Positions 10,176-25,524 of a stretch of 64,000 nucleotides of DNA are shown here, piece after piece. The notes under the pieces are model-generated. The model had not been told where the DNA came from, did no database searches, and saw only the letters and a list, made by a program, of their open reading frames with translations. The first letter of the stretch is position 1; every line of letters begins with the position of its first letter. Made by a program: the position numbers and the translations under genes. The DNA is from Sedimentibacter sp. MB31-C6 (GTDB taxonomy: Bacteria; Bacillota; Clostridia; Tissierellales; Sedimentibacteraceae), in the NCBI RefSeq assembly GCF_035934735.1, contig NZ_CP142396.1:806001-870000 (forward strand), in the 5' to 3' direction.

Positions 10176-10202
10176 TAAATTTTAATCGAAAAGTGCCGAT
10201 AT
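10176..10202 (+). promoter_or_regulatory. SigD (sigma-28) promoter of the 10283-16912 operon
   Basis: Perfect match: TAAA (10176-10179), 15-base spacer, GCCGATAT (10195-10202), reading rightward and ending 80 bases before the ATG at 10283. It is back to back with the cheA promoter region in a 223-base divergent gap. Confidence 0.9.
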
Positions 10203-10282
10203 ATATAATGTTATATTTTTGCTTTAAATTTTCATCTTAATACTATATAATAATATTAAATATTAATTACTGGAGAGTTATT

Positions 10283-11719
10283 ATGATAGATAATGATATT
10301 CGCGTAAGTACAAAAAATCCTTTAAGTGACAATACACTTAATAAACAAAAAATAAAAACAGAACCAATTACGCCTTTTGATGTCATTGATCCTACTAAAG
10401 TTACAAAACCTAATAAGCAAGACCCTAGTAATCATACAAGCCAAAATTGGCTTAATTATAATCCTGATTCAGTATTTGAAAAATTTTTAAAATCTCTTGG
10501 AAACTCTCCTATACTGTCTGATAATTTGAAAAAATTACTTTTGAATAATCAGTTTATAAATCACAATATTAAAAATGATCCCGTTTTAAATACACTATTT
10601 GAAACATTCATTAAAAATATTGAAATGGATGACAAAGAAATTTTAAATTTTTTAAAACTACAACAAAATACTTATACTAAATTTAATGGAGACTTTTTTA
10701 ATTCCCTGAGAAATCTTTACAAACTCAACTCTAATAATGAGGACTTTAAAATTATATTAAGGAATTTTTTAAGAAGTTATGATTGTTTTGTTTCTATTAA
10801 CGATACTTATAAATCAATAAATTCTACATTGAAAAATATACATGAAAATATACCTGATATTTTAAAAGAACCATTTAAAGAACTATTAGATAAAATGGTT
10901 ACTGAAAATTACACTAAAAGTAATGATTTAAATTTAAACTTGTTGAAAAATGAGATTTTGCCTTTTATTGGTCGTTATGTATCTAAAATGAATGATTTTG
11001 GTCCTGTTAGGGATTATGTTTCCGTACTAGTACATAATTTAATCAGATTAGAAACTGCATCAAAAGATACTTTTTCTACTGATTTAGATAATTTATTTGA
11101 CTATATAAAATTTAATTTACAAATAGAAGATAAAGAACTTAATAATTTAAAGTTGTCTCTAATTAATTCATATGAAACGTCTTCAAATACAAAAAATAAT
11201 TCTATTGACTCCTTGATAGACATTATAAGAACTGGTATTAAAGATAGTAATAATGTAGTAAACAAAGGAGTTATGGAAGACATGGCTGACTCATTATTAT
11301 TTAATCAAAGTGTTCATATACCATTAATGCACTTATTTATGCCATTAAATTACAATGGTATGTTTATGTTTTCTGAACTATGGATTAGTAAAGATTATGA
11401 AGATTATACAGAAAACAAAAAAAGCAATTATGAAAAAAAGGAAACTTTCAATGTATTTATTACCTTTGAAATTCAAAATGTAGGTTACTTTGAAACAACC
11501 TTATTGTTAAAAGATAATAACCTATCTCTTGAAATTTTAATACCTAATAAATTTGTAAATCATATTGATAAAATAAGAAATGATATCAGTGAAATTATTC
11601 AAAATAAAAATATATCTATTTCTGATATAAATGTATCTGAATGTATTAAAAGAAGAAGATTTAATGAAGTATTCGATAATCTTGCTGAAAGGAAAAACGG
11701 TGTAAATGTCGTCATATAA
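10283..11719 (+). CDS. FliK-like protein (YlqG type), first gene of the SigD operon
   Basis: A 478-residue protein with no signal peptide. The N-terminal ~60 residues are polar and probably disordered, as in secreted flagellar rulers; the middle is helical. The C-terminal part (about 345-460) has a strand pattern recalling the FliK hook-length-control domain: FNVFITFEIQNVGYFETTLLLKD-type strands and the following helix and strand. It overlaps by 14 bases the gene for a free-standing FlhB C-terminal domain, the natural partner of FliK. The same pairing is known as ylqG-ylqH in Bacillus subtilis. The FliK relationship is inferred by eye and needs a profile search. ATG 10283 follows GGAG. Confidence 0.6.
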   Translation: MIDNDIRVSTKNPLSDNTLNKQKIKTEPITPFDVIDPTKVTKPNKQDPSNHTSQNWLNYNPDSVFEKFLKSLGNSPILSDNLKKLLLNNQFINHNIKNDPVLNTLFETFIKNIEMDDKEILNFLKLQQNTYTKFNGDFFNSLRNLYKLNSNNEDFKIILRNFLRSYDCFVSINDTYKSINSTLKNIHENIPDILKEPFKELLDKMVTENYTKSNDLNLNLLKNEILPFIGRYVSKMNDFGPVRDYVSVLVHNLIRLETASKDTFSTDLDNLFDYIKFNLQIEDKELNNLKLSLINSYETSSNTKNNSIDSLIDIIRTGIKDSNNVVNKGVMEDMADSLLFNQSVHIPLMHLFMPLNYNGMFMFSELWISKDYEDYTENKKSNYEKKETFNVFITFEIQNVGYFETTLLLKDNNLSLEILIPNKFVNHIDKIRNDISEIIQNKNISISDINVSECIKRRRFNEVFDNLAERKNGVNVVI

Positions 11720-12002
11720 TAATAAAAATAAAGCTAAAGCTAAACGTGCTGTTGCTATAAAGTATGATGCTAATAAAAATAATGCCCCTGTGGTTATTGC
11801 ATCAGGATCAGGATATATAGCCAACAAAGTAGTTGAAATAGCAGAAGACAGTGGTGTACCCATTTATAAAGATGACTCCCTTTCTGTATTGCTATCACAA
11901 TTAGAAATAGGTAGTGAAATTCCTGAAATACTTTTTGGTGCAATAGTAGATATATATATATATTTCTTAAATTTTAAGATTGATTCTTCAGATGATATTT
12001 AA
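11706..12002 (+). CDS. FlhB C-terminal paralogue (FlhX/YlqH type)
   Basis: A 98-residue stand-alone version of the cytoplasmic export-switch domain of FlhB. Its KRAVAIKYDANKNNAPVVIASG stretch (near 13-34, written here in parts) aligns with the segment just after the NPTH cleavage site of the full FlhB at 33825-34886. The membrane part and the NPTH site are absent, so it resembles an already cleaved domain. In the known family such proteins can bind or partly replace the FlhB C-terminus. It overlaps the FliK-like gene by 14 bases, which suggests coupled translation. A 63-base gap precedes the FtsA-like gene. Confidence 0.85.
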   Translation: MSSYNNKNKAKAKRAVAIKYDANKNNAPVVIASGSGYIANKVVEIAEDSGVPIYKDDSLSVLLSQLEIGSEIPEILFGAIVDIYIYFLNFKIDSSDDI

Positions 12003-12065
12003 GAATTACATATAATAATATCTTGTTAATTAAAATGTTAATAATATTAATGAAAGGTTTAATCT

Positions 12066-14090
12066 ATGGATAACATAATTTTTGCTTTAGATATTGGTAC
12101 ACGTTCAATAGTAGGTGTAGTCTGCGAAATTATTGATGGATGTCTTAAAGTTGTCGCAATAAAAAGTGTCTTTCACAATCAAAGATCTATGATTGATGGG
12201 CAAATAGAAGATATAGCTGAGGTTAGCCGAATTATAGGAATTGTTAAAGAAGATTTAGAGAGTAGTTTGAATATTAAACTAGATAAAGTGTGTATAGCGG
12301 CTGCCGGAAGGTCATTGAAAACCGAGCGTATAATGTTAGAAAAAGAGTCAGACATAAGAGTACCTATTACTGAAGATTTCAAAAATGCAATGGAATTAGA
12401 AGCATTACAACTTGCACAAAAAGTATTCTCAAAGGATTCTTTAAATGAGGATTTATTTTATTGTGTAGGATATAGCGTATTAAACTATATTCTAGATGAT
12501 AAAACTATTTCCAATATTGTAGGTCACAGAGGCAAAAAAGTTTCTATAGAAATAATTGCTGCTTTTCTACCTCACACTGTTATCGAAGGTCTTTATTCAT
12601 GTATGGATAACAATGATTTAGAGGTTGTGAATTTAACTTTAGAGCCTATAGCTGCCATGGATTTAATTATTCCTAAAGAACTTCGTTTATTAAATTTGGC
12701 ACTAATAGATATAGGCGCGGGAACTTCAGATATAGCAATATCAAAGGTTGGAACCGTAGTTGGTTACGATATGGCTACATTGGCTGGAGACGAAATAACT
12801 GAATGCATCATGAAAAATTATATAGTAGATTTTAATAATGCTGAATCGATAAAAGCTTCTTTAATTGAAAATATAGAAGAATACACCATAACAAATATAC
12901 TTGGTATTCCACAAAAAGTTTCTAAAGATCAAATTTTTGAAACTATAAGGCCATCTATATTAGACTTGTGTTCAGATATAGCTTCAAAAATTTTAAAATT
13001 AAATAACGAGCCTCCTGCTGCTGTTTTCTTAGCTGGCGGAGGAAGTAAAATACCATTTTTAAGAGAAGTTTTATCAGAACTTTTAGATGTCCCACTAACT
13101 AGAATAGCAATTGCTGAAAAAAACAGTATTAAGGATATTGATTTATCTTTAATAAATGAATTTGGTCCTGAGTTAATAACTCCAATAGGAATTGCATACT
13201 CTGTTATTTTAAATAAAAATTATGATTTTTTCAGCGTAATCGTTAATAATAAAAAAGTTAGGTTATATAGCATAAGACAAATGAAGGTTATGGATGCCTT
13301 GTTAATGTCAGGATTTGATACAAAACAACTTATAGGAATTTCTGGTAAAAGTCTACGATTCTACGTAAATGGCAAGGAACATTTTTACGCAGGAGAATAT
13401 TCAACCCCTGCTCAAATTTATGTTAATTCATTGCCTGCTAATATTGAAACAACTATTAATCCTGGAGATTTAATTAAAGTTGTACCTGCAACTGACGGAG
13501 CATCTCCTAAAATAAAAATATCTGATATTGACAAGTGCGAAAAAAATGGACAAGTTTATTTTAATGGCATAAAAACAGAAATAGGCACAAAGTATTATGT
13601 TAATAACGTATTAGTTAACTCTGATTATATAATTGGAAATTCAGATTTAATAGAAATTTCAAAAATAAGTAGTTTAAAAGATTTAATAAATCTATTTAAT
13701 ATATATGATGAAACCAATAATACATACTTTGTTAATGGTAAATTAATTGAAATGGACTTTGAATTATATGATGGATGTATAATAGATATTTCAAGTAGTA
13801 GTGAAAAAAATATGAACAATACAGAATATGAAAATAATAATAAATCAAATGAATTAGAAGAAAAGTCAGAAATAAACTCTATTGAAGTGACAATTAATAA
13901 TGAAAATGTAAAATTACCTGTTCGAGAAGATAATACTCCTTATATTTTTGCTGACATGTTAAATTATACAGATATTGATCCAGCTAATCCAAAAGGTAAT
14001 ATTATCTTGCTACACAATGGCAAAGAAGCATCATATTTGAACTTAATATCTAACAAAGATGTAATAATAATTAAATGGGATACTGAGTAA
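12066..14090 (+). CDS. FtsA/PilM-like actin-family ATPase with C-terminal extension
   Basis: Cytoplasmic actin-fold protein of 674 residues. The nucleotide-binding motifs are clear: phosphate-1 ALDIGTRS near residue 8, phosphate-2 LIDIGAGTSDIAIS near 216, and the adenosine motif FLAGGGSKIP near 322. The region between (about 85-165) fits the SHS2/1C insert of FtsA. Beyond about residue 390 a 280-residue extension carries several small beta-rich repeats, the last possibly ubiquitin-like. No C-terminal amphipathic membrane anchor is evident. It is not in a cell-division cluster but in a SigD-controlled operon with an FlhB paralogue, PilZ, SLH and ComFB genes. Its cellular role is unknown; linking motility to the envelope or division is only inference. 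Confidence 0.8.
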   Translation: MDNIIFALDIGTRSIVGVVCEIIDGCLKVVAIKSVFHNQRSMIDGQIEDIAEVSRIIGIVKEDLESSLNIKLDKVCIAAAGRSLKTERIMLEKESDIRVPITEDFKNAMELEALQLAQKVFSKDSLNEDLFYCVGYSVLNYILDDKTISNIVGHRGKKVSIEIIAAFLPHTVIEGLYSCMDNNDLEVVNLTLEPIAAMDLIIPKELRLLNLALIDIGAGTSDIAISKVGTVVGYDMATLAGDEITECIMKNYIVDFNNAESIKASLIENIEEYTITNILGIPQKVSKDQIFETIRPSILDLCSDIASKILKLNNEPPAAVFLAGGGSKIPFLREVLSELLDVPLTRIAIAEKNSIKDIDLSLINEFGPELITPIGIAYSVILNKNYDFFSVIVNNKKVRLYSIRQMKVMDALLMSGFDTKQLIGISGKSLRFYVNGKEHFYAGEYSTPAQIYVNSLPANIETTINPGDLIKVVPATDGASPKIKISDIDKCEKNGQVYFNGIKTEIGTKYYVNNVLVNSDYIIGNSDLIEISKISSLKDLINLFNIYDETNNTYFVNGKLIEMDFELYDGCIIDISSSSEKNMNNTEYENNNKSNELEEKSEINSIEVTINNENVKLPVREDNTPYIFADMLNYTDIDPANPKGNIILLHNGKEASYLNLISNKDVIIIKWDTE

Positions 14091-14114
14091 ATTCTTTTTA
14101 AGAAAGGAGTATGT

Positions 14115-14747
14115 ATGATTAATAGATCTTCATTAGTTAAAATTTATGATTTTAAAAAAGAATTTATAGGAAAAGGTAGGTTGTTAAACTTAAATAAACC
14201 GACGATTATTGTTAAAGGAAATAATTTGCCAGTTTTAAGTTATGATACAAAAATATATATATATGTATATGATTCCCTTAAAGGAATATTTCCTTATCTA
14301 TGTAAGGTGAGCGTAGCTTCAAGCAAACAAATTACTGCTAATATCATAGGTGTAGAACCAGTCATAGAACGCAGAACTGCTTTGAAGGTTAATACCAACT
14401 TGACCTTTTATTTAGATAAGATTTATAGAGATGATGAAGATTTAACTGAAGATTTACCTCGCATAAAAATCAACTTGCATAATTTAAGTATAAGAGGAAT
14501 GTTAATATCATCTAATTTTGAATTTCAAATTAATGATAGAATTATATTTTGTTTTAAAACTTTTAAATCTACACCTATATTTTTAGAAGCTAAGGTTATA
14601 AGAATCGATGATATTATTGATGAAGAAACTAATAATGTAATATCAAACAATTATGGATGTATTTTTTTAAATACTTCAAATAGTGATGAGTCTATAATAT
14701 TAAAATATCTTTTTGATAGGCAACTTCAATTATACAAGGGCAGATGA
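14115..14747 (+). CDS. PilZ-domain protein, flagellar-brake (YcgR) type
   Basis: Predicted c-di-GMP effector of 210 residues. An N-terminal beta-rich YcgR-like region (about 1-88) is followed by a PilZ domain (about 89-205). The PilZ signature is present in part: ERRTALKV gives RxxxK instead of RxxxR, and NLSIRG supplies the (D/N)xSxxG motif. Proteins of this build slow the motor when c-di-GMP is bound. It follows the FtsA-like gene by 24 bases behind AAGGAG. The Lys substitution may lower or change ligand affinity. Confidence 0.85.
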   Translation: MINRSSLVKIYDFKKEFIGKGRLLNLNKPTIIVKGNNLPVLSYDTKIYIYVYDSLKGIFPYLCKVSVASSKQITANIIGVEPVIERRTALKVNTNLTFYLDKIYRDDEDLTEDLPRIKINLHNLSIRGMLISSNFEFQINDRIIFCFKTFKSTPIFLEAKVIRIDDIIDEETNNVISNNYGCIFLNTSNSDESIILKYLFDRQLQLYKGR

Positions 14748-14810
14748 ATTTTAAATATTACATATTCCTAAGTCAACAAATACATAAAATTGAAACAAAA
14801 GGAGTTTTTA

Positions 14811-16625
14811 ATGAAAAAATTATTAATTATTATTGCAACAATTGTAATAATTTTTAACATAAATAGTACATGCTATGGCGCAGAAGATAACACTTTAAGA
14901 GCTAGCTTTGACGTAGAAGACGTATCTGGTACAAATTTTAAGGAAATCACTATAACACCATATCGTTATATAAATAACAGAAGGATAGAAGAAGACGAAG
15001 ACGATGAATTTTATATATACCTGCCTTCTGGTTACCAAGTTATAGGAAAATCTGCATCATTTATAGTAGATAAAGATGGAAAATATCCATTCACTATTTA
15101 CTATGGAAGAAATCCTAAAACAATTTTTTATACTGTTAAAGATATTGATGAAGATGATGATGATGATAATAAATATTCCAATAAAGATGATAGAGATGAT
15201 ATATTCTTCGACTATGAACTTAAATATGACTATGAAAAAAAGCAAGTACTTTTTTATATGAATCTCGATAAGGTACGTTCAGTAGTTACCCCTGATAACA
15301 AAACAACTATATCAAATGAAATTAATTATTACTTGAATAAATTAGAAAACAATGTTCCTTTTAGCTTCACTATTTATGTTGATGATGAAAAATATGATTA
15401 TAAAGTAATTAAGCAAGGTGAATTTTACCTTTTAATAACACTTTCACCTATAAACTATGATGACTATAGTACAATTGTAAAATATTCTGGATACAATTTT
15501 ACTGATAACGATAATTACACAACTATTCCTAGTATGGACATATACGATGATAATGGTAATTATGAAGTTCTTGTTAAATCAGATACTAATTCTCAAGAAT
15601 TATTTAATTTCAATATTACGGGAATTGATTACAGAAGACCTGATATAGATATTAGTTTCTTGAATGATTATACTTTTGAATTAGATGTTAAAGATGACTT
15701 TGGACTGGATTATTTAATAACTTTTGATGGAAAATATATTCCAATAAGTAAAGGTAAAGATGATATAAAAGAGTTTAATTATAAACATAATACAATAATA
15801 AATTATGATGGTATATACTATTTTACAGTTGTTGATAAAGCTGGAAATAGATCTGTTGCATCTACTAAAATTACATCCAGAAGAAGACCTCGTAAGCATT
15901 CATTGGATTATGATGTGCATGATTATAAATATACTGAGGATTTATTTGAAAATAAAGGTCTAAAATATAAAAAAACAGAGGAAACTGCGAGTACCTTTGA
16001 AATATTAATTCCTGCTTATATGAATGGCGTCAATTCTACTAATTTTAACCCAGATTCACCAATTACACGAGCAGAAATGGTAACTATTTTTTGCAGAATA
16101 AATGACCTTCCCTATGACACAACTGCTTATTTAAAAAATAAATTTACGGATATAGATAATCATTGGGCAAGGGATTATATCTCAATGGGCAGTAAAAAAA
16201 GATATGTTTCAGGATATAAGGACAAAACTTTTCGCCCAGATAGTAATGTAACTAGAGCTGAATTTTGTGAGATGTTATCAAAAATAAGTAGCTTTAAATC
16301 AAAAATAAACGCATTGCCAGCTACTAGTAACTTTAATTTCTCTGATATAAATGGCCATTGGGCAAAAAGTGCAATAATCAAAATTTCAAATAGAGATTTA
16401 GTTTCAGGTAATGGTAATTATTTTTATCCTGATAAACCAATAACTAGAGGTGAAGTTGTACATGCTATAAATAATCTTTATAATTATAGTCCTTCAGACA
16501 ATGAGTTAGTTTATATTAATTCATTGTACAATAAATACTATAACTTTAAAGATATTTATTATCATAAGTATTATAATGACATAATTATTTCAGTTGTAGG
16601 TATGTATAGAGAAATTATTGATTGA
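14811..16625 (+). CDS. Secreted S-layer-homology (SLH) domain protein
   Basis: Exported, wall-associated protein of 604 residues. It has a signal peptide (MKKLLIIIATIVIIF, then CYGAED near 24). A large region rich in Asp and Tyr includes very acidic runs (near 62-70 and 110-130). Three SLH repeats sit at the C-terminus (about 400-580; ITRAEMV, VTRAEFC and ITRGEVV mark them). SLH domains usually bind secondary cell-wall polymer, often pyruvylated; a pyruvyl transferase gene lies 3 kb downstream. I prefer ATG 14811, with AAGGAG eight bases upstream, over a TTG at 14790. The N-terminal two-thirds is not recognised. Confidence 0.88.
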   Translation: MKKLLIIIATIVIIFNINSTCYGAEDNTLRASFDVEDVSGTNFKEITITPYRYINNRRIEEDEDDEFYIYLPSGYQVIGKSASFIVDKDGKYPFTIYYGRNPKTIFYTVKDIDEDDDDDNKYSNKDDRDDIFFDYELKYDYEKKQVLFYMNLDKVRSVVTPDNKTTISNEINYYLNKLENNVPFSFTIYVDDEKYDYKVIKQGEFYLLITLSPINYDDYSTIVKYSGYNFTDNDNYTTIPSMDIYDDNGNYEVLVKSDTNSQELFNFNITGIDYRRPDIDISFLNDYTFELDVKDDFGLDYLITFDGKYIPISKGKDDIKEFNYKHNTIINYDGIYYFTVVDKAGNRSVASTKITSRRRPRKHSLDYDVHDYKYTEDLFENKGLKYKKTEETASTFEILIPAYMNGVNSTNFNPDSPITRAEMVTIFCRINDLPYDTTAYLKNKFTDIDNHWARDYISMGSKKRYVSGYKDKTFRPDSNVTRAEFCEMLSKISSFKSKINALPATSNFNFSDINGHWAKSAIIKISNRDLVSGNGNYFYPDKPITRGEVVHAINNLYNYSPSDNELVYINSLYNKYYNFKDIYYHKYYNDIIISVVGMYREIID

Positions 16626-16639
16626 AGGGGGGGAAGTAA

Positions 16640-16912
16640 ATGGTAGTAAATTATTTAGAAGTATGCGTTGAAAATTATTTACACAAATTATTAGAAACTG
16701 ACCCGAATTACAATGATATCTGCAAATGCGAACAATGTGCTGATGATATCATGGCTATGGCATTAAATAACCTTAAACCTTACTATATAACTTCAAAAAA
16801 AGGTGAAGTTTTTGCTGAATACAGTTCCTTAGAATGTCAGAATCACGCAGAAGTTGTTAAGGAAGTCATTAAAGCAATTGAATTCATTTCAAAAAATAAG
16901 AATCATGAATAA
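16640..16912 (+). CDS. ComFB-domain protein (possible cyclic-dinucleotide receptor)
   Basis: A 90-residue cytoplasmic protein made of a single ComFB domain. The cysteine cluster CKCEQC (near 29-34) followed by DDIMAMALNNLKPYY is the family signature. ComFB proteins have been reported to bind c-di-GMP or related dinucleotides in cyanobacteria and other bacteria, so this may be an effector for the operon. It ends the SigD operon, directly before a terminator. A second, longer ComFB gene is at 59486-59983. Family call is firm; ligand is inferred. Confidence 0.85.
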   Translation: MVVNYLEVCVENYLHKLLETDPNYNDICKCEQCADDIMAMALNNLKPYYITSKKGEVFAEYSSLECQNHAEVVKEVIKAIEFISKNKNHE

Positions 16913-16936
16913 AAAGGGGTAATCACTCCTTTTTTT
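16913..16936 (+). terminator. Rho-independent terminator of the FliK-like to ComFB operon
   Basis: Stem AAAGGGGT (16913-16920), loop AATC, ACTCCTTT (16925-16932) with one G-T pair, then a run of T to 16936. It starts right after the stop codon. Confidence 0.85.
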
Positions 16937-17029: not shown

Positions 17030-17056
17030 TAAAAAAAAACTGAAAAATGCCGATAT
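17030..17056 (+). promoter_or_regulatory. SigD (sigma-28) promoter of the 17109-20995 glycan operon
   Basis: Perfect match: TAAA (17030-17033), 15-base spacer, GCCGATAT (17049-17056), ending 52 bases before the TTG start at 17109. An inverted repeat, ATTATATT (17008-17015) / AATATAAT (17022-17029), ends exactly at the -35 box. Confidence 0.9.
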
Positions 17057-17108
17057 ATTATATATTAGGTATATAAATTAATCATTTAGTTTAATTAAGG
17101 AGAGAAAA

Positions 17109-18464
17109 TTGAAGAAAGTTATTACATACGGTTCTTTTGATTTGTTTCACGATGGCCATTATAGATTGTTAAAAAGAGCAAAAGAATTAGGTGATTACCT
17201 TATTGTTGGGGTTACAACAGAGCAATATGACGAGTATAGAGGTAAGCTTAATATTATTGATTCTATAGTAAATAGAATTGAACATATAAAACAAACGGGT
17301 TTTGCAGATGAAATTATAATTGAAGACCACATGGGCCAAAAAATCGAGGATATATTAAAATATAATATTGATATTTTTACTGTTGGCTCGGATTGGACTG
17401 GAAAATTTGATTATTTAAAGGAGTACTGTGAAGTTATATATCTAGAAAGAACAAAAGGTATTTCCAGTACAATGCTAAGAGTTACTAATTATAATATTAT
17501 TAAAATTGGAATTATAGGAAGCGGAAGAATAGCAAATAGATTTGTGCCAGAATCAAAAGCAGTAAATGGTGTAAATGTTGAATCTGTTTATAATCCACAT
17601 TTACAAAGTGCAAAAAAATTAGCTGATAAATTCGAACTAAATACCTATACTGATAATATCGATATATTTTATAATGACATTGATGCAGTATATATTGCAT
17701 CTCCACATAATACTCATTATGAATATATAAAATCATCTTTAATTAATGGAAAACACGTATTATGCGAAAAACCTATGGTATTAAGTAAATCACAGGCTGA
17801 AGAATTATTTGATATAGCAATAAGTAACAATCTCGTTTTATTGGAAGCAATTAAGACTGCATATACTCCAGGATTTTTAAAGCTAATAGGAATCGCTAAA
17901 AGTGGTGAAATTGGAGTGATACGGGATGTTGAAGCATGCTTTACGAAGTTAGTTTCTGGAAATATTAGAGAATTGCAAAAGGAAGAAAATGGCGGTAGTT
18001 TTACTGAACTTGCAAGCTATCCACTATTAGCCATAATAAAAATACTAGGTACTGATTATAAAGAAGTTCGGTTTGATTGCTTTGTAGATAAAAATGGTAT
18101 AGATTTATATACGAAAGCCTATTTATATTATGACACTACTATAGCCACTGCTAAGGTTGGTTTAGGAGTAAAGTCAGAAGGTCAACTTATTATATCAGGA
18201 ACTAACGGATATCTTTTAGCAGAAGCTCCATGGTGGAAAACACAACATTTTGAAGTAAGACATGAAGACTCTAATAAAAATGAAAAATTTTACACAAAAT
18301 TTTATGCTGAAGGTTTAAGATATGAAATTAGTGATTTTGAATCCCTAATTAACGGCAATAAAAAAAAGGAATTTAAACTTACAGCTATTGAATCAGTTGT
18401 TTTAGCAAAAATAATGGAAGACTTCATAAATGGTAAGAACAAAAATATAATTACAATTAATTAA
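17109..18464 (+). CDS. Cytidylyltransferase-Gfo/Idh/MocA dehydrogenase fusion
   Basis: Bifunctional sugar or polyol enzyme of 451 residues. The N-terminal part (about 1-128) is a TagD-like glycerol-3-phosphate cytidylyltransferase with the HDGH nucleotidyl-transfer motif (residues 14-17) and the ISSTMLR motif near 118. The C-terminal part (about 131-451) is an NAD(P)-dependent Gfo/Idh/MocA oxidoreductase with GIIGSGRIA near 135 and the CEKPM active-site loop near 219. The pair could make a CDP-activated polyol. The start is TTG 17109, behind AAGGAGAG. First gene of a SigD-driven operon, so probably for a flagellar or surface glycan. The true substrate is unknown. Confidence 0.87.
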   Translation: MKKVITYGSFDLFHDGHYRLLKRAKELGDYLIVGVTTEQYDEYRGKLNIIDSIVNRIEHIKQTGFADEIIIEDHMGQKIEDILKYNIDIFTVGSDWTGKFDYLKEYCEVIYLERTKGISSTMLRVTNYNIIKIGIIGSGRIANRFVPESKAVNGVNVESVYNPHLQSAKKLADKFELNTYTDNIDIFYNDIDAVYIASPHNTHYEYIKSSLINGKHVLCEKPMVLSKSQAEELFDIAISNNLVLLEAIKTAYTPGFLKLIGIAKSGEIGVIRDVEACFTKLVSGNIRELQKEENGGSFTELASYPLLAIIKILGTDYKEVRFDCFVDKNGIDLYTKAYLYYDTTIATAKVGLGVKSEGQLIISGTNGYLLAEAPWWKTQHFEVRHEDSNKNEKFYTKFYAEGLRYEISDFESLINGNKKKEFKLTAIESVVLAKIMEDFINGKNKNIITIN

Positions 18465-18481
18465 CAATGATGAGGTGTACT

Positions 18482-19435
18482 ATGAAAAATTTAATCTCAA
18501 TTATTGTCCCTGTATATAATGTAGAAAGACACATTATAAAATGTATTGAAAGCATTACTAATCAAACTTACACGAATTTAGAAATTATTTGCATAAATGA
18601 TGGTTCTACTGATGATAGTGGTAAAATATGTGATGATTATTCTAAAAGGGATAATAGAATTAAAGTAATTCATAAAAAAAATGAAGGTGTAAGTTCTGCA
18701 AGAAATTTCGGCTTAAAATATGCGACCGGCGAATTTATTGGATTTGTAGATCCAGATGATTGGATTGAAAATAGAATGTATGAAGTTATGATTGATGCTT
18801 TATTAGAGAATAATGCTGATATAGCAATAGCTAATTATTACATTGACACTGATGAAACTACTACTCCAATGATTAATCAAGAACAAATTGATTATAAACC
18901 TTTTAATCAAGAAAAACTTATTACCTATGCGTTTAAAAGAGATGAATACAAAGGTTTCGGTGCGTATATTTGGAATAAATTATTTAGAGCTTCTTTGTTT
19001 AAAATGAATGATAGCTCTACATTAAATTTTGATGAAAATATTACATTTTGTGAAGATATTATATTTTTTACAAACTTAGCACTAAATTCAAAAAAATCAA
19101 TTTATATAACAAAACCTATGTATCATTATTATAAGCGTAACAGTTCTCTTTCACATACAGCAGATATATCTAAAAGAGTAGGTAGTTTACATGCTTATAA
19201 AAGAATAATCGAAATGTTAGAAAATAAGCATATAGTTACTTGGCTTAAACGTTTCTATACATATCATGCTAGTCTTATCCTAGAAATTTGTGTGAATAAC
19301 AATTATGATGACAAAATAACAATTTACGCTAATGAAACGAAAAGATATATTAAAGAGTACATAAATACTAATACTGAATACCCCGAAAGAATTCAACGAA
19401 TGGAGAAATTGCTTCAATATAATGTGAATGTATAG
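18482..19435 (+). CDS. Family 2 glycosyltransferase
   Basis: Cytoplasmic GT-A-fold transferase of 317 residues that would add a sugar from a nucleotide-sugar donor. Near the start are SIIVPVYNVE and the ICINDGSTDDSG donor-binding motif; VDPDDWIE near 88 holds the DxD-type metal site. The C-terminal part is helical. I choose ATG 18482, behind GATGAGGTG, over an upstream in-frame ATG at 18467. It is 17 bases downstream of the fusion gene. Its place in a SigD operon suggests flagellin glycosylation. Acceptor and sugar are not known. Confidence 0.88.
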   Translation: MKNLISIIVPVYNVERHIIKCIESITNQTYTNLEIICINDGSTDDSGKICDDYSKRDNRIKVIHKKNEGVSSARNFGLKYATGEFIGFVDPDDWIENRMYEVMIDALLENNADIAIANYYIDTDETTTPMINQEQIDYKPFNQEKLITYAFKRDEYKGFGAYIWNKLFRASLFKMNDSSTLNFDENITFCEDIIFFTNLALNSKKSIYITKPMYHYYKRNSSLSHTADISKRVGSLHAYKRIIEMLENKHIVTWLKRFYTYHASLILEICVNNNYDDKITIYANETKRYIKEYINTNTEYPERIQRMEKLLQYNVNV

Positions 19436-19483
19436 TATAAAGTGATTTTCAAATTAATGAAAATATAAAAATGAGGTGGCTTA

Positions 19484-19912
19484 ATGTTTTATCTTCGAAG
19501 AGGTACAAATCAACAAGAAGAATATGCATACTGTTATTTAACGTCCATGCAATACCTGAAACTTAAAAACAATAATAAAAATATAAGTAAGTTTTTTATA
19601 GATAATAACTTTAAAAGAATAGCTATTTATGGTTTAGGACAATTTGCTGATATATTATATAATGACTTAATAAAAACAGATGTTCAAGTAATGTATTTCA
19701 TTGATAAAGAATGTAAAAAATTCACATATGGGTATAATGATATACCTGTAGTTAATGTGAACTCTATCAGTAAGGAACCCGATGTAGATGTTATTGTTAT
19801 CACATCAGTATATCATTGCAATGAGGCAATAGATGAACTGTTGAAAAACGGTAAAGAGTTAGAAAGCATAATTAATTTTAATGATGTTGTATTTGGAATG
19901 GAGAGTGAATAA
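19484..19912 (+). CDS. Small Rossmann-like protein of the glycan operon
   Basis: A 142-residue protein I do not fully recognise. After a 45-residue helical start it has a nucleotide-binding type strand-turn-helix, IAIYGLGQFADILYND (near 47-62), then alternating strands and helices. The shape recalls the NAD(P)-binding half-domains found attached to glycosyltransferases or the N-terminal part of PglD-type acetyltransferases. It lies between a glycosyltransferase and a pyruvyl transferase, four bases before the latter, so a helper role in surface sugar synthesis is likely. No catalytic residues can be named. Confidence 0.6.
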   Translation: MFYLRRGTNQQEEYAYCYLTSMQYLKLKNNNKNISKFFIDNNFKRIAIYGLGQFADILYNDLIKTDVQVMYFIDKECKKFTYGYNDIPVVNVNSISKEPDVDVIVITSVYHCNEAIDELLKNGKELESIINFNDVVFGMESE

Positions 19913-19915
19913 CCA

Positions 19916-20995
19916 ATGAAGAAAATAGGTATTTTAAATTTTCATTTTTGTGATAATTATGGAGCTGTTTTACAATGTTATGCTTTAAAATATACAATAA
20001 ATAAATTAGATGGATGTTATGCAGAAGTTATAAACTTTAATCCCAATTGGAAACCTAGTTCTTTTGAAAATGAAATTATTAAAAATAAATATATTAGTAA
20101 ACTAGATAAATATGAAAAATTCAGAGAAAAGTATCTAGAAATTGAGAGTGACTTTATTTATGACATGACTTCAGATAAATGTCCTAAGTTTGACTATTAT
20201 ATTGTAGGTAGTGATCAGGTTTGGAATACTACTTTTAGTTTTTCCAATACTGCTTACTTTCTCGATTTTGTAGAGGATAATTCAGTTAAGATTTCTTATG
20301 CAGCAAGTATTGGAATTGGACTTGAAGATAAAAGGTTAAATCCTAAGATATTTGAAAAATATATACCTAATTTTAATTATTTATCAATCAGAGAAAAAAC
20401 TCACGAGGCTTTTGTACAGCAATTTACAGAAAAAAAAGTTCATACTGTGTTAGATCCAACTCTACTACTTGAAAAAGAAGAATATGATAAATTAATTGAT
20501 AATACAAAAAGTGAAAAAGAAAAAGATAAATATATATTTTTTTACTTTCTTAATCATGATAAAACTGCTCCATTAGCCATAAGTTTTGTAAATATGTTAG
20601 CTAGAAAATATAATTTAAAAGTTATTCATTTTTTTACAGAGGCACCAAAAGGATTATTTAAAAATAATTCAGATAGTTTTTTCTTTGATGGACCAATTGA
20701 CTTTCTATGGTACATTAAAAATGCAGAAATAATAGTGACTAATTCCTTTCATGGAACTATTTTTTCAATACTATATCAAAAACCATTTTATACTTATATA
20801 GTTAAAAGTATGTCATCAAGAATTTATGATTTATTAGAAAACTTAGGCCTTAAAAATAGAATAATCTCTGGATTTAAAAAACTAAGAGATGTTGATTTTA
20901 ATATTGATTACACTGAAGTAAATAAGAAAATTAAATTTTCTAGAGAATATTCCTTGAACTTTTTAAAAAAGTCATTGAATATTAAAAAATTTTAA
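19916..20995 (+). CDS. Polysaccharide pyruvyl transferase family protein
   Basis: A 359-residue protein of the CsaB/PssM family, which transfers pyruvate from PEP to a sugar as a ketal or acts as a related glycan transferase. Signature parts are the start KKIGILNFHFCDNYGAVLQ, the YYIVGSDQVWN segment near 98, and the late TNSFHGTIFSILY motif near 280. It is the last gene of the SigD glycan operon, before a shared terminator. Pyruvylated wall polymer is the usual ligand of SLH domains, and an SLH protein is encoded 3 kb upstream. It could instead decorate the flagellin glycan. Confidence 0.85.
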   Translation: MKKIGILNFHFCDNYGAVLQCYALKYTINKLDGCYAEVINFNPNWKPSSFENEIIKNKYISKLDKYEKFREKYLEIESDFIYDMTSDKCPKFDYYIVGSDQVWNTTFSFSNTAYFLDFVEDNSVKISYAASIGIGLEDKRLNPKIFEKYIPNFNYLSIREKTHEAFVQQFTEKKVHTVLDPTLLLEKEEYDKLIDNTKSEKEKDKYIFFYFLNHDKTAPLAISFVNMLARKYNLKVIHFFTEAPKGLFKNNSDSFFFDGPIDFLWYIKNAEIIVTNSFHGTIFSILYQKPFYTYIVKSMSSRIYDLLENLGLKNRIISGFKKLRDVDFNIDYTEVNKKIKFSREYSLNFLKKSLNIKKF

Positions 20996-21000
20996 TATTG

Positions 21001-21039
21001 AGAAATGTCCGGAAAATTAGTAATTTTTCGGACATTTCT
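21001..21039. terminator. Bidirectional terminator between convergent glycan operons
   Basis: Long inverted repeat: AGAAATGTCCG (21001-21011) pairs with CGGACATTTCT (21029-21039), extended inside by AAAA/TTTT around one bulged G. T-rich ends occur on both strands. It separates the plus-strand pyruvyl transferase gene from the minus-strand acyltransferase gene. Confidence 0.88.
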
Positions 21040-21056
21040 TCGAATTGATGCATTAA

Positions 21057-21749
21057 TTAAATGTTAGTACTTTTACGACTCCATGAAGCATGATTACTAA
21101 TAATTTTAGCTGTAGCTCCACCTCCAGCTACAGAATTATGTGGAACATCCTTTCTAACTAACGTCTGCGCTGTAACTAAACTACCTTGCCCTATATGAAC
21201 TCCTTTTAGTACAGTTACATTAGATGTCAACCACACATTATCCTCTATAACAACCTTCTGAGGAGGATTAGTCATCCTTCCTTCTGCATCCAAAACTTGA
21301 TGATGATCACTGTCATAAACTAAAATATTACGACCTAACATTACATTATCTCCAAAGATTATATTTTGGGCAACAATAATAGTACTACCTCCATTTACGG
21401 TGAAATACCCTGCTTCAAATATTGCGTTATTTTTTAATTCTAAAACTGTATCATAAAAGAGTTTTGCCCCACCTTTTGAAATCCATTTTGAGTTTTTTTC
21501 CATACGTAAATAGGTTTCTGCTTTTGATTTTCTTAATTTATTATGACCAATAGTAATGTTATTACCACTAAGAATAATTCGTGCACTTTTATCAATATCT
21601 AATACTGAATTTTTCATTGTAAAAATATAGCATTTCTCTTCTCGTATTACACAATTAGAAATAAAATTCCAGTATATAAATTTAAATATGTCAATTCTTT
21701 TCAATATATATATATAATGTTTACATTTTTGAATTATTTTTTCTTTCAT
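21057..21749 (-). CDS. Left-handed beta-helix acyltransferase (hexapeptide type)
   Basis: A 230-residue protein with the repeating hexapeptide pattern of acetyl- or succinyl-CoA sugar transferases (about 100-215; for example IEDNVWLTSNVTVLKGVHIG). The likely catalytic His is in YDSDHHQV near 146. The C-terminus GGGATAKIISNH resembles the CoA-binding end of the maltose or galactoside acetyltransferase group. I choose ATG 21749, behind GAGGG, over ATG 21761. It lies 67 bases downstream of the iron-sulfur gene and probably O-acetylates a surface or flagellar glycan. Confidence 0.82.
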   Translation of the reverse strand: MKEKIIQKCKHYIYILKRIDIFKFIYWNFISNCVIREEKCYIFTMKNSVLDIDKSARIILSGNNITIGHNKLRKSKAETYLRMEKNSKWISKGGAKLFYDTVLELKNNAIFEAGYFTVNGGSTIIVAQNIIFGDNVMLGRNILVYDSDHHQVLDAEGRMTNPPQKVVIEDNVWLTSNVTVLKGVHIGQGSLVTAQTLVRKDVPHNSVAGGGATAKIISNHASWSRKSTNI

Positions 21750-21816
21750 ATAATCCCTCATATCAATATTTTTTTACCACTAAAACTTTTTAATGCTTTA
21801 TGATACAAATATAGCT

Positions 21817-22917
21817 TTATTTATCTGTAAAACACATTTGAACTGCTGTAGTAAATGGATATTTTTCTAAAAGTTTAAAAAATCGATTGCGCTCTGTTCC
21901 TTCTTGTGCAGATGTTAATATGCAAGGGTTTCCTTTAATAGCACTTTCTAATGATTGTTCTTCTAAAGTAATTGAATCTTTTATAGACGTAATCAAACTC
22001 TTCCCTTTTTCTGAATTTACCATAATTACTGATATTCCATTAAACATATCTTTAGAATCTGCTCCTTGTATTCCCCAAAAATCACCGATAGTTATATCAG
22101 CAATCCTTGGTAACTCTTTATATTTGCAATTATGACACGAAGGTCTCATATACAAATTCCCTTTAATGAAACCTTTTACCCACAAATCATTATTTTTATC
22201 TTTATAATATTCAGAACCATTTTTAAACTTAACTAAAGTAGCTAAACTTGTCCAGCCATTTTTCTTATTTTTTAAATGAACAAATTCAATTTCAGAATTA
22301 TATTCATTCTCCAATTCTTCCATATAACTTTTAAAGACCATTGGTGAATTAACACCTCTACAAATAAAATCAGCTATAACAAGATTGTTATAGTCTTTCT
22401 TCAAAAATGATTGCAATGCACCCCCCTGACAAGGAGTACCACAAAATAGTACTTTCTTACCTTCTTCAAGAAGTTTTTTAACAGTAAGATAAATTCCTTT
22501 AGCATCACTTTGAAAATACTTGGAACCCATAACCTGATTTAAGCCTTCAATTGTATTAGAATATATATGCTTAGCTCCTTTATAATTGCCCGTATACCTT
22601 GATCCTACAATATATCCTCCTGAGTTTATAAAATAACTTGCCATAGCATAATACATACCACCTGAAGTGCTTTTTAATCTAATATCAGTATTATTAATCC
22701 ATCCTGAATAAACTTCAGGCTTATTCTTCTTAAAATCAATTTTTGTTAAACTTGGACATGACTTAATGCAGTTTTGGCATTTTATACACTTACTATAGTC
22801 AACATCAGGATACCAAAATCCTTCTTTGTCTAGTGGGTAAGTGATTGCATCAACCGGACATACATCTGAACACATTTTACATCCAGTACATTGTTCCTTC
22901 TTAATATTATTAATCAT
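21817..22917 (-). CDS. Iron-sulfur protein of the F420-hydrogenase beta-subunit family
   Basis: A 366-residue cytoplasmic redox protein. Two 4Fe-4S clusters are bound near the N-terminus (CTGCKMCSDVCP at about 9-20 and CIKCQNCIKSCP at about 42-53). The FrhB/FdhB-type flavin and FeS domain follows, with conserved CGTPCQ near 158 and a later CHNCKY motif. In Firmicutes these proteins commonly sit in surface-polysaccharide loci next to pyruvyl transferase genes, and F420 itself is not implied. ATG 22917 lies behind GAGAGG; a longer frame would overlap the aldo/keto reductase. The exact reductive step is unknown. Confidence 0.82.
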   Translation of the reverse strand: MINNIKKEQCTGCKMCSDVCPVDAITYPLDKEGFWYPDVDYSKCIKCQNCIKSCPSLTKIDFKKNKPEVYSGWINNTDIRLKSTSGGMYYAMASYFINSGGYIVGSRYTGNYKGAKHIYSNTIEGLNQVMGSKYFQSDAKGIYLTVKKLLEEGKKVLFCGTPCQGGALQSFLKKDYNNLVIADFICRGVNSPMVFKSYMEELENEYNSEIEFVHLKNKKNGWTSLATLVKFKNGSEYYKDKNNDLWVKGFIKGNLYMRPSCHNCKYKELPRIADITIGDFWGIQGADSKDMFNGISVIMVNSEKGKSLITSIKDSITLEEQSLESAIKGNPCILTSAQEGTERNRFFKLLEKYPFTTAVQMCFTDK

Positions 22918-22945
22918 AACCTTACCTCTCATATTTAATATATAA

Positions 22946-23893
22946 TTACAATCTGTCAAAGTCGCAATTATCTGGATCATATCTTAACCTTGAATTAATA
23001 TTTATACTATTAATTTGTTCGACTTCTTGATTAGTTAATTCGAAGTCAAAAATATCCATATTCTCCCTTAGATGATCAAGCTTTGTGGTGTTTACTATTG
23101 GGATATTTCCATTTTGCATATGCCATCTTAATATAATTTGTGGTATTGACTTATTATAATTTTTTGATATTATTTCTAACTTTCTATTACGTTTTAAACG
23201 AAAATCCATTCTTCCTGTAGGGGTATATGCCATAACTTGTATACCATTTTCATTACAATAGTCAATTAAATTATTTTGAGTAAATAATGGGTGACATTCA
23301 AATTGATTAACCATTGGCATTATTTCAGCAACTTTTTTCAACTCTTCTAAATGATGAATATTAAAGTTACATACTCCAATTGCTCTACACAGTCCCTCTT
23401 TATATATTTGCTCCATTTGCTTCCAAGATTTTAAATATGTATCTGTTTGTGGCCAATGAATTAAATATAAATCAACGTAATCCATATTTAATTGCTCAAG
23501 ACTCGATATAATAGCTTCTTTAACTGTTTTATTTTTTTGATCAAAATTACTAAGTTTAGTTATTATAAAATAATCATCTCTATTATACCCCTTAAGCTCA
23601 TGTCCCAATACGTATTCACTCCCACCATATGCTCTCGAAGTATCAAATAACCTACAATTTAATTTAGGTGCATATTTTACAATCTTAGGCAAAGAATTAT
23701 CTACTTTTAACCTTTTAAAATTCTTGCTCTTTACTAATTTGTAATATTGTTTAGTTCTTCTATAAATTTTGGTAACTCTATTACTTGAGTTTCTCCAAGT
23801 TTGAGCTATATCTGTTCCAAAACCCATTTCAGGTATACTTATTCCATTTGATAAGATTCTTTTATAACTTGTTGTTATTTCACCGTTAATCAC
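22946..23893 (-). CDS. Aldo/keto reductase
   Basis: An NADPH-dependent (beta/alpha)8 reductase of 315 residues, starting at GTG 23893 behind AAGGAGGTGA. The catalytic tetrad is visible: Asp and Tyr in FDTSRAYGGSE, Lys in IITKLS, His in LIHWPQ. Between the first strand (EMGFGT) and FDTS there is an unusually long, basic segment of about 60 residues, where the family normally has 15-25. The usual C-terminal NADPH-binding segment is present (VNTTKLDHLREN). First gene of a minus-strand trio with the iron-sulfur and acyltransferase genes, so a polyol or deoxysugar step is plausible. Confidence 0.87.
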   Translation of the reverse strand: MINGEITTSYKRILSNGISIPEMGFGTDIAQTWRNSSNRVTKIYRRTKQYYKLVKSKNFKRLKVDNSLPKIVKYAPKLNCRLFDTSRAYGGSEYVLGHELKGYNRDDYFIITKLSNFDQKNKTVKEAIISSLEQLNMDYVDLYLIHWPQTDTYLKSWKQMEQIYKEGLCRAIGVCNFNIHHLEELKKVAEIMPMVNQFECHPLFTQNNLIDYCNENGIQVMAYTPTGRMDFRLKRNRKLEIISKNYNKSIPQIILRWHMQNGNIPIVNTTKLDHLRENMDIFDFELTNQEVEQINSININSRLRYDPDNCDFDRL

Positions 23894-23930
23894 TTTAAAT
23901 CACCTCCTTGAATTATGTGCTTTTAAGTAT

Positions 23931-23981
23931 ATAAAAATTCCTCATGACCTTCAAAATATTTTTACTAGTCTTGAGGAATTT
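23931..23981 (-). terminator. Hairpin terminator after the CDP-glycerol-transferase-like gene
   Basis: AAATTCCTCA (23935-23944) pairs with TGAGGAATTT (23972-23981), continued by GAC/GTC inside. On the minus strand a run of T follows. It lies 16 bases beyond the stop codon at 23998 and ends the long flagellar transcript's tail. Confidence 0.75.
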
Positions 23982-23997
23982 GACATAATACAAGATT

Positions 23998-25488
23998 TCA
24001 TTTTTTATATACTTCGTCGTATATTTTACTATGTATTCGCTCCCCTGCTTTTCCATCAAGATTAGGAAATGTATCTTCAGTAATTTTTAATCTATTATGC
24101 AAATTATAATCTTTATCATTAAGTATCATATCCCTAAAATCTGTAATAGAAGTACCTAAATAATCAATATAAAATGCTGAAGGATCAGTAAAATAATTAA
24201 AAGTCTTAATTGAACCATATGGTTCTAAATGATAAATAGGTTTTTTAGTGATTAAATAATTATTTATTATAGAACTACCATCACTAATAAGTGCATCTGA
24301 TAAAATAAACGATAAAAGGTATGTAGATGTAGTATCCAAAATACAATTTTCTATTTTTTCTACTGATTCCTCTAATTTCACGTATTTGTTATATAAATCT
24401 GGTGTATATTTCTTAATGCCAGAACGTGCTAAAGGATGTGGTCTCCATATTAAAGCACAATTAGGATTATCAATAATAGAATGTATTAAATTTTCTAAAT
24501 CTTCAACAGTTTCCTGTCCTTTTATACTAAAGTGAAAAATTTTTGTATTTAATAAAAATACCTTTTTCCCTTGAAGCTTTTTTATCCATTCTTTAGGAAT
24601 ATTATAATTTTTATTATGCAAATTATAAATAACAGAATCTATTTTTGGAGACCCATATGTTAACAAATTACTAGAATCAAAACCGAAACCAGTTAAAAAA
24701 TTGCTAAATGCTACGGATTGACAAATTACCTTATGTGAATTATAAATTCCAGGCATTTTGTAGAAATTATTAATTTTATCATCTTTATTAAGACTATATG
24801 ACATACTTACAAAGTATGGGCAATATACCAGCATATTAGTGTATTTTACTAAATTCCTAGAATAATATTGAGTAGGTACTCGAGTCAAAGTATTGTATTC
24901 ATCATATGGATTGTGAAAATAAATAATATCAGGTTTTTTTACAGAAATATCATAATCCTTAAAATGTGTTACTGGAACCTCTTCATTAAAATTATCACCC
25001 TCATACTCTAAGGTAGAAAAATCATTTTTTTCTGTATTAACATAGTAAGGAATTGGAACTACATGACAGTTACACCTTGGGTCATCTTTAGCTGCTCTCC
25101 AAATACTTTCCATTGAATCCCACATCGAAGACTTGTACGGTAAAAAAACTATTTCCAGTTTAACTTCTGATTCATCCAATAGACTACCTTTTAAACTAAT
25201 TATTAAGTTTTCTATTTTATATGAAATTTCTTTAGTATTTTGGCCGTTATTAACAAAGGTCTTCATTTGCATTATTTTTTCAATTATGGAGTTTATTTTT
25301 ATAGCATAAAAAGATATCCTATTTTCTGATAACCCTGATTCTAAAGAATTAAAGATTGAAGAAATTGCATTTATACAGTCATCTAATACTTGAATTGCTA
25401 AATGGCTTTCAGCATTTTGCGCATATGTTATCCCTTCTATAATAGTAGGAATTAATTCAATTATTTTATTTCTAATGTTAAGTCTCAT
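23998..25488 (-). CDS. CDP-glycerol glycerophosphotransferase-like protein
   Basis: A 496-residue protein. The N-terminal ~110 residues are helical. The rest fits the CDP-glycerol:poly(glycerophosphate) transferase fold (TagB/TagF type, GT-B-like): WRPHPLARS near 345 holds the conserved His-Pro of the donor site, and SDALISDGSSIINNYL near 410 the Asp-Gly-Ser motif. No membrane helix is evident. It would add glycerol-phosphate or a similar alditol-phosphate to a surface polymer or glycan, using a CDP donor such as the fusion enzyme at 17109 could supply. It lies 36 bases after the glycosyltransferase-TPR gene. Confidence 0.8.
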   Translation of the reverse strand: MRLNIRNKIIELIPTIIEGITYAQNAESHLAIQVLDDCINAISSIFNSLESGLSENRISFYAIKINSIIEKIMQMKTFVNNGQNTKEISYKIENLIISLKGSLLDESEVKLEIVFLPYKSSMWDSMESIWRAAKDDPRCNCHVVPIPYYVNTEKNDFSTLEYEGDNFNEEVPVTHFKDYDISVKKPDIIYFHNPYDEYNTLTRVPTQYYSRNLVKYTNMLVYCPYFVSMSYSLNKDDKINNFYKMPGIYNSHKVICQSVAFSNFLTGFGFDSSNLLTYGSPKIDSVIYNLHNKNYNIPKEWIKKLQGKKVFLLNTKIFHFSIKGQETVEDLENLIHSIIDNPNCALIWRPHPLARSGIKKYTPDLYNKYVKLEESVEKIENCILDTTSTYLLSFILSDALISDGSSIINNYLITKKPIYHLEPYGSIKTFNYFTDPSAFYIDYLGTSITDFRDMILNDKDYNLHNRLKITEDTFPNLDGKAGERIHSKIYDEVYKK

Positions 25489-25524
25489 ATTTGTCCTCTT
25501 ATTCTAATCAGTAAAATTTATATA

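Follow-up and report, generated by a model that had tools for sequence, protein, structure and literature searches.

What does an actin-type protein of the FtsA kind do in an operon headed by a SigD-type promoter? The question is raised by a 64,000-nucleotide (nt) stretch of the genome of Sedimentibacter sp. MB31-C6 (contig NZ_CP142396.1, positions 806,001 to 870,000; hereafter the window, to which all coordinates refer), where six plus-strand genes at 10283-16912 encode a FliK-like protein, FlhX (a free C-terminal domain of FlhB), an FtsA-like protein, a PilZ-domain protein, a protein with SLH domains and a ComFB-family protein. The original prediction for this locus had proposed, as a hypothesis, that the six genes form a device made late in flagellar assembly and controlled by cyclic di-GMP (c-di-GMP). 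Here we report that the most interesting part of the operon, an FtsA-type family that follows flagella, extends well beyond the Sedimentibacteraceae operon, and that its link to flagella across the sampled Clostridia is well supported. Taken together, the findings favour an accessory role in the flagellum and indicate cyclic-dinucleotide input. The individual parts of the operon belong to known families, and a link between the FtsA-like family and the flagellum was not described by title or abstract start among the open-licence PMC papers searched. A table in PMC4945068 places 'Cell division protein FtsA' (bactNOG01470 and bactNOG04846; 26.1 vs 82.6) beside flagellar and chemotaxis groups; the table belongs to a section on functions scarce or depleted in gut bacteria, and its entry leaves the form of FtsA unspecified.

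The FtsA-like family is linked to flagella across sampled Clostridia

The third gene of the operon (12066-14090, plus strand) encodes a protein of 674 amino acids (aa), in which an FtsA-type actin domain (residues 1 to about 380; PF14450, 5e-11; TIGR01174, 2e-26) is followed by an extension of about 290 aa. Its profile matched solved FtsA chains (PDB 7q6f and 1e4f) at up to 4.5e-21 (7q6f) over profile positions 4-340, and the ATP phosphate and adenosine motifs (DIGT, D-GAGTSD and GG) are invariant or nearly so among 30 sequences. The extension can be aligned across the order and is built of short modules with a recurrent GDxIxI ending, the alignment closing in a conserved module that finishes GDxIxIYW. 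Compared singly by profile, these modules resemble one another (probability 90-95), and they are probably beta-grasp-like; in the extension of one class member ThiS was matched over its cut-off, together with TGS, the window protein giving only 0.84. A sequence search of the PDB returned no match to the extension at E 0.01, and a PHROGs search returned nothing for either the FtsA-like or the FliK-like protein. Named relatives comprise three Sedimentibacter records and two metagenome-assembled genomes of unclassified Firmicutes, at 65-68% identity.

Presence was scored in two overlapping samples, with the sets for carrier counts compiled by hand from match listings. The class sample consists of 293 Clostridia genomes with a completeness of 90% or more (73 with the FtsA-like form, 118 with FlhA), and the order sample of 249 genomes of any completeness; 58 carriers remain of the 60 matches in the order, G188 and G190 having been dropped because they matched over the FtsA domain only, at 26-27% identity, in 419-aa frames that score as canonical FtsA. 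Across the class, FlhA was found in 72 of the 73 carriers vs 46 of the 220 non-carriers, a result that upholds the flagellar link of the original prediction. The pattern is the same when counted by genus (44/44 carrier genera vs 29/137), by family (each of the 19 carrier families belongs to the 37 that have FlhA) and in the order sample (54/58 carriers vs 40/191 non-carriers). A genome with the FtsA-like gene almost always has flagella, whereas a flagellated genome need not have the gene. A family carried by roughly one in four of the sampled Clostridia (73/293), and closest to division FtsA, appears to belong with the flagellum.

FlhX tracks the FtsA-like gene beyond flagella alone. With two or more TIGR00789 matches taken as a proxy for its presence among flagellated genomes, FlhX was found in 52 of 54 carriers vs 23 of 40 non-carriers in the order, and in 12/13 carriers vs 6/13 non-carriers in a class test on genomes picked by hand (13 of the 72 flagellated carriers and 13 of the 46 flagellated non-carriers).

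Neighbourhoods outside Sedimentibacteraceae were compared for 32 of the 48 order carriers and for 20 class carriers. Genes similar to 36 proteins of the window's flagellar and chemotaxis region occurred in none of these 52 loci and in 8/8 loci inside the family, so that the correlation with flagella is not due to linkage; the result also rules out that the FtsA-like gene generally has a flagellar neighbourhood. Its neighbours outside the family are often nth, DUF503, VanW/peptidoglycan-binding/G5 and DUF2225 genes, among other settings; nth was present in 28/41 and a VanW-type gene in 26/41 order loci, family loci included. The original prediction was to fall if its six genes failed to co-occur in other genomes. 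For the six-gene cluster as such this is the outcome, since it was not seen in FtsA-like loci of other families (0/52); the FtsA-like gene does, however, co-occur with the flagellum and with FlhX.

A conserved SigD operon in Sedimentibacteraceae

The account of six genes running with short gaps from a SigD promoter to a terminator proved correct in each element, as judged by the list of open reading frames (ORFs), a motif scan and folding. An exact SigD-type promoter (TAAA-N15-GCCGATA, 10176-10201, plus strand) lies 107 nt ahead of the first start, its 11/11 match being reached in none of 200 shuffles of the promoter region, and the junctions between successive genes are a 14-nt overlap followed by gaps of 63, 24, 42 and 14 nt. 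At the operon end, an intrinsic terminator hairpin with a T run (16911-16934, plus strand) folds at -9.5 kcal/mol (z -4.0); a simple consensus terminator scan of the window listed no terminator there. A looser SigD-type pattern occurs three times in the window vs 0.66 expected.

Among the 27 Sedimentibacteraceae genomes sampled, 22 have FlhA, and the operon was mapped in 18 of these 22 (the window, L061-L068 and L081-L089), so that the SigD operon of the original prediction is a conserved one. For the remaining flagellated genomes, G184 is represented by a 3-kb contig only, and G162, G175 and G183 have a single TIGR00789 match. The gene order is FliK-like, FlhX, FtsA-like where present, PilZ, SLH and ComFB. 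The FliK-like, PilZ and SLH genes were each found in 17 of the 18 loci, ComFB in 13 and the FtsA-like gene in 9, some absences falling at contig ends; FlhX was picked in 16, the other two genomes having it by genome profile search. PilZ is absent from L063, and ComFB from L063, L067 and L068. Of 17 family operons, the window's included, 14 have NCGATA in the 100 nt upstream (a raw count with no chance expectation attached) and 11 have CCGATA within 300 nt vs 0.7 expected, a comparison to be read beside the other genes of these loci, of which 20 out of 237 likewise have CCGATA within 300 nt. Under the strict SigD pattern only the window's operon has a site (1/17), the family pattern being visible with the -10 element alone.

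The six genes do not form an obligate unit. Nine of the 18 operons lack the FtsA-like gene, the other five genes all being visible in six of them and contig ends cutting three; the junction between FlhX and PilZ is uninterrupted in 8 of these 9 loci, and in L089 (genome 62% complete) it holds unknown letters, so that the absence there rests on the order-wide FtsA-like search. A tree of the other operon proteins (18 rows, midpoint root only) implies three changes of FtsA-like state, at least two of them forced by well-supported branches. In this tree the FliK-like protein is missing for L088 and the SLH protein for L084 (contig ends), PilZ is absent for L063, and FlhX was not picked by the ORF caller in L065 and L066, both of whose genomes contain it. 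The nine operons and the three changes rule out an obligate six-part device as a reading of the original prediction. Ancestral presence of the FtsA-like gene with repeated loss from the operon would be the simplest history, since the gene occurs in the outlying G187 as well as in G000 and G163, and the repeated loss suggests a role in tuning, not an essential one.

The operon is flanked on one side by a fliS/fliD/cheB/cheR/cheA run on the other strand, and on the other side by a glycan island, beyond which lie cheD/cheC/FapA and the main flagellar cluster. By itself this position makes a late flagellar role plausible. The glycan island (17030-26838), between the ComFB gene and cheD, has its own SigD-type site at 17030-17055 and encodes a cytidylyltransferase/Gfo-Idh fusion, glycosyltransferases, a pyruvyl transferase, an FrhB-type protein, an aldo/keto reductase and a glycerophosphotransferase; in most relatives' loci a gene of the cheD cluster comes directly after the operon. 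A hemerythrin-domain gene (2431-2835) lies inside the flagellin/fliS/fliD run.

The FliK-like/FlhX pair sits outside its usual locus

The second gene (11706-12002, plus strand) encodes FlhX, a protein of 98 aa that corresponds to the FlhB C-terminal domain (PF01312, 8e-17; TIGR00789, 1.2e-22 over residues 12-88 of 98) and has no N-terminal membrane part. Full-length FlhB is encoded separately in the window (33825-34886; PF01312, 1.3e-116). FlhX scores below the TIGR00789 cut-off (79.9 vs 117.35 bits), which was exceeded in none of the 249 order genomes and in 2/14 control genomes.

The first gene (10283-11719, plus strand) encodes the FliK-like protein of 478 aa, for which the label is weak: it draws only on the place beside FlhX and on a weak C-terminal profile match to counterparts of other families (probability 57, E 1e-4). 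No Pfam or NCBIfam family matched over cut-off, and Flg_hook (PF02120) was matched by neither the window protein nor two family relatives, so that FliK membership by Pfam does not apply to the window protein; among four counterparts from other families, one matched Flg_hook over cut-off (1.5e-7). The protein is the probable counterpart of the one encoded between rnhB and flhX in other families.

Ten FlhX-match loci of other order families were fetched (L091-L100), and in six of them (L091-L096) the order and sizes of the genes fit a housekeeping layout that encloses the FliK-like/FlhX pair. The names in this layout, tested on L093 and partly on L094, are YlqF, RnhB, the FliK-like/FlhX pair, YraN, YifB, DprA and TopA; L097 and L098 have a similar layout in which FlhX was not picked by the ORF caller, and L099 and L100 are unassigned. 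Judged by gene order, the pair normally resides in this ylqF-rnhB...dprA-topA locus and is relocated in Sedimentibacteraceae. With the pair in the ylqF-topA locus and the FtsA-like gene near nth elsewhere, and with flagellar-region genes in 0/52 outside loci, the operon is an assembly peculiar to Sedimentibacteraceae, made of genes found separately in other families. We take the housekeeping position to be that of ylqG-ylqH in Bacillus subtilis, YlqH presumably being the B. subtilis name for FlhX, and a 2006 paper on a 'spare part' in Helicobacter reportedly concerns a free FlhB C-domain. FlhX appears as an established name in passages of PMC10746217 and PMC9321776, the latter mentioning flhX-fliK jointly, and a table of evolved B. 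subtilis clones in PMC11523185 contains a ylqG mutation in an entry that gives no function.

Cyclic-dinucleotide genes accompany the FtsA-like gene

The original prediction had also placed two likely c-di-GMP effectors in the operon. The PilZ protein (210 aa; 14115-14747, plus strand) has a Pfam match of 3e-8. The c-di-GMP receptor motifs of PilZ proteins are RxxxR and (D/N)xSxxG; ERRxxLK and NLSxxGM are present in 17/17 aligned family members. The last gene (16640-16912, plus strand) encodes a 90-aa ComFB-family protein (PF10719, 3e-22, 78.9 bits vs a 25-bit cut-off; the NCBIfam equivalog cut-off is not reached, at 44 vs 120) whose CxCxxC is kept in 13 members. Cyanobacterial ComFB proteins are reported to bind c-di-AMP and c-di-GMP (PMC12313861). 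Together, PilZ and ComFB are two probable cyclic-dinucleotide receptors. Between them lies the gene for the SLH protein (611 aa, TTG start; 14790-16625, plus strand), whose three SLH stretches (Pfam, 1.7e-31) suggest a product that is probably exported and wall-bound.

In other families a different gene takes up this theme. A GGDEF gene comes next after the FtsA-like gene on the same strand in 7/20 class loci from five families (L121, L125-L127, L129, L132 and L138; a raw count with no chance expectation attached), at a spacing of 3 to 63 nt in six and of 250 nt in one, and an HD-type (HD_5) gene lies near the FtsA-like gene in L121 and L125. The arrangement in f24, f41, f64 and f73 may be a single inherited one; at L138, the locus from f42, other genes lie upstream and the FtsA-like/GGDEF pair is kept. 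Cyclic-dinucleotide genes hence accompany the FtsA-like gene in two unrelated contexts, with PilZ and ComFB in one and GGDEF in the other, in keeping with the c-di-GMP connection first proposed.

Discussion

At a probability of roughly 55%, we favour the reading that the window holds a late SigD flagellar accessory operon, in which the FtsA-like protein is an ATP-dependent scaffold near the flagellar base whose state is set by c-di-GMP. Such an operon would have been assembled from the relocated FliK-like/FlhX export-switch pair, PilZ and ComFB, the SLH protein and a member of the FtsA-like family. The FtsA-like protein would be cytoplasmic, lie at or near the flagellar base and serve the flagellum roughly as PilM serves type IV pili, with its C-terminal modules docking partners. 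Here its state would depend on PilZ, and in other families on the adjacent diguanylate cyclase; the FliK-like protein and FlhX would have their part in export switching within the same time window. The ATPase activity, location, binding partners and ligands of the protein we infer; our best guess, from its fold, its company and an analogy with type IV pili, is that it acts at the flagellar base as a scaffold similar to PilM. A wider claim, which we put forward as possible and hold tentatively, is that flagellated Clostridia own a dedicated actin-type cytoskeletal ATPase of the FtsA family, the flagellar counterpart of PilM, which forms a scaffold at the base of the flagellum under c-di-GMP control and is taken for a division protein because of its similarity to one, and that Sedimentibacteraceae have put its gene in a SigD operon with partners. 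If the family does belong with the flagellum, the annotations it is likely to carry would be corrected, a testable accessory part of clostridial flagella would be named, and a candidate link of c-di-GMP to the flagellar base through an actin-type ATPase would be gained.

Several observations weigh against the scaffold reading. The gene is dispensable, since 12 flagellated genomes of Sedimentibacteraceae and 46 of the class lack it, and FlhA went undetected in one class carrier (G310) and in four order carriers, three of which (G086, G193 and G203) still have a free FlhX; in G310, G004 and G086 flagella may have been lost recently, binning may have left a gap, or the exception may be real. The p values attached to the counts above (1.7e-35 for FlhA across the class, 0.03 for the class FlhX test) overstate independence, the only correction for relatedness being a collapse of the counts to genus and family in place of a species tree. 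In the order, SpoIVA is present in 53/58 carriers and FlhA in 54/58, leaving flagella and sporulation inseparable there. In the 250 nt ahead of the FtsA-like gene itself, a SigD-type site was found in 0/61 loci (family loci included) vs 3/867 for other genes. In 17/17 aligned family members the PilZ RxxxR motif has lysine in place of its second arginine (RxxxK). Finally, an AlphaFold model of the FtsA-like protein built on six sequences has a mean predicted local distance difference test (pLDDT) score of 50, from which the fold of the extension and a docking surface are not derivable.

It is also conceivable, and in our view unlikely, that the six genes are merely co-expressed with late flagellar genes, the FtsA-like gene following flagella indirectly through the wall or shape demands of motile cells. 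This would account for a gene that comes and goes without the others, for the loss of PilZ and ComFB from some operons, and for the VanW/peptidoglycan-binding/G5 and DUF2225 neighbours elsewhere, which hint at the wall; however, simple co-expression would explain neither why FlhX tracks the FtsA-like gene beyond flagella alone nor why c-di-GMP genes recur beside it in other families. Decidedly less probable is a partnership in which the FtsA-like protein works specifically with FlhX and the FliK-like protein to switch export substrates or control the hook, c-di-GMP being incidental. The adjacency of the FtsA-like gene to FlhX in Sedimentibacteraceae and the presence of FlhX in nearly all flagellated carriers speak for such a partnership, whereas FlhX persists in the nine family operons without the FtsA-like gene, the two genes are separated in other families' loci, and the flagellated carriers G023, G024 and G433 have one TIGR00789 match each, which implies that they lack a free FlhX.

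We consider it very improbable that the FtsA-like protein serves the organism as its FtsA or as an additional division FtsA. In the window genome it is the best TIGR01174 match, the next two being MreB-type, with no canonical FtsA over cut-off; it nevertheless scores under the equivalog cut-off (92.8 bits, or 94.2 in a second search, vs 175.85). Neither form was detected in 17 of the 27 Sedimentibacteraceae genomes, 7 of them at least 94% complete and the rest drafts of 62-88%, with the FtsA-like form in 10 and canonical FtsA over cut-off in none; the genomes with neither form appear to divide without FtsA, and division in the family seems to run without the canonical protein. Across the order, canonical FtsA exceeds the cut-off in 17/249 genomes, 15 of which also have the FtsA-like form, and in a tree the FtsA-like proteins (40 long rows) and canonical FtsA (15 rows) fall into separate clades (support 100/98). 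The coexistence, the separate clades and the genomes with neither form rule out a sole division FtsA, an outcome on which the original prediction would have fallen; the distribution, moreover, follows flagella. On the sequence evidence, the FtsA-like protein is not the division FtsA. The notion that it is a sporulation protein, following flagella only as many motile Clostridia sporulate, has next to no chance, for the high SpoIVA count among order carriers is set against no link in the class (58/71 carriers vs 57/70 non-carriers, from 71 of the 73 carriers and 70 of the 220 non-carriers taken at even steps), which rules out such a role.

Comparison with known systems

Each part of the operon resembles a known system and departs from it. 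FlhX (TIGR00789) is, as elsewhere, a 98-aa free FlhB C-domain beside a FliK-like gene; here the pair stands in a SigD operon, elsewhere in the ylqF-rnhB-dprA-topA locus. The ComFB protein is a small member of the ComFB/CdgR family (PF10719) that is found here in a flagellar operon. YcgR and MotI are PilZ proteins that act as flagellar brakes; the 210-aa PilZ protein likewise belongs to a flagellar regulon, but has RxxxK in all 17 aligned members in place of RxxxR. With division FtsA (TIGR01174, PF14450) the FtsA-like protein shares the actin/FtsA fold and conserved ATP motifs, whereas its modules of about 290 aa reach the C terminus, and it forms a separate clade that follows flagella and coexists with the canonical form in 15 genomes. 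Division FtsA has a C-terminal amphipathic helix for membrane targeting, binds FtsZ and localises at the septum; the last conserved stretch in the FtsA-like alignment is the GDxIxIYW module. The nearest functional analogy may be PilM (PF11104, TIGR01175), an FtsA-fold cytoplasmic protein of the type IV pilus, likewise a surface-appendage machine. The FtsA-like protein matches Pfam PilM (PF11104, 1.4e-8, residues 198-377), but it falls far under the TIGR01175 cut-off (41.3 vs 133 bits) and is tied to flagella.

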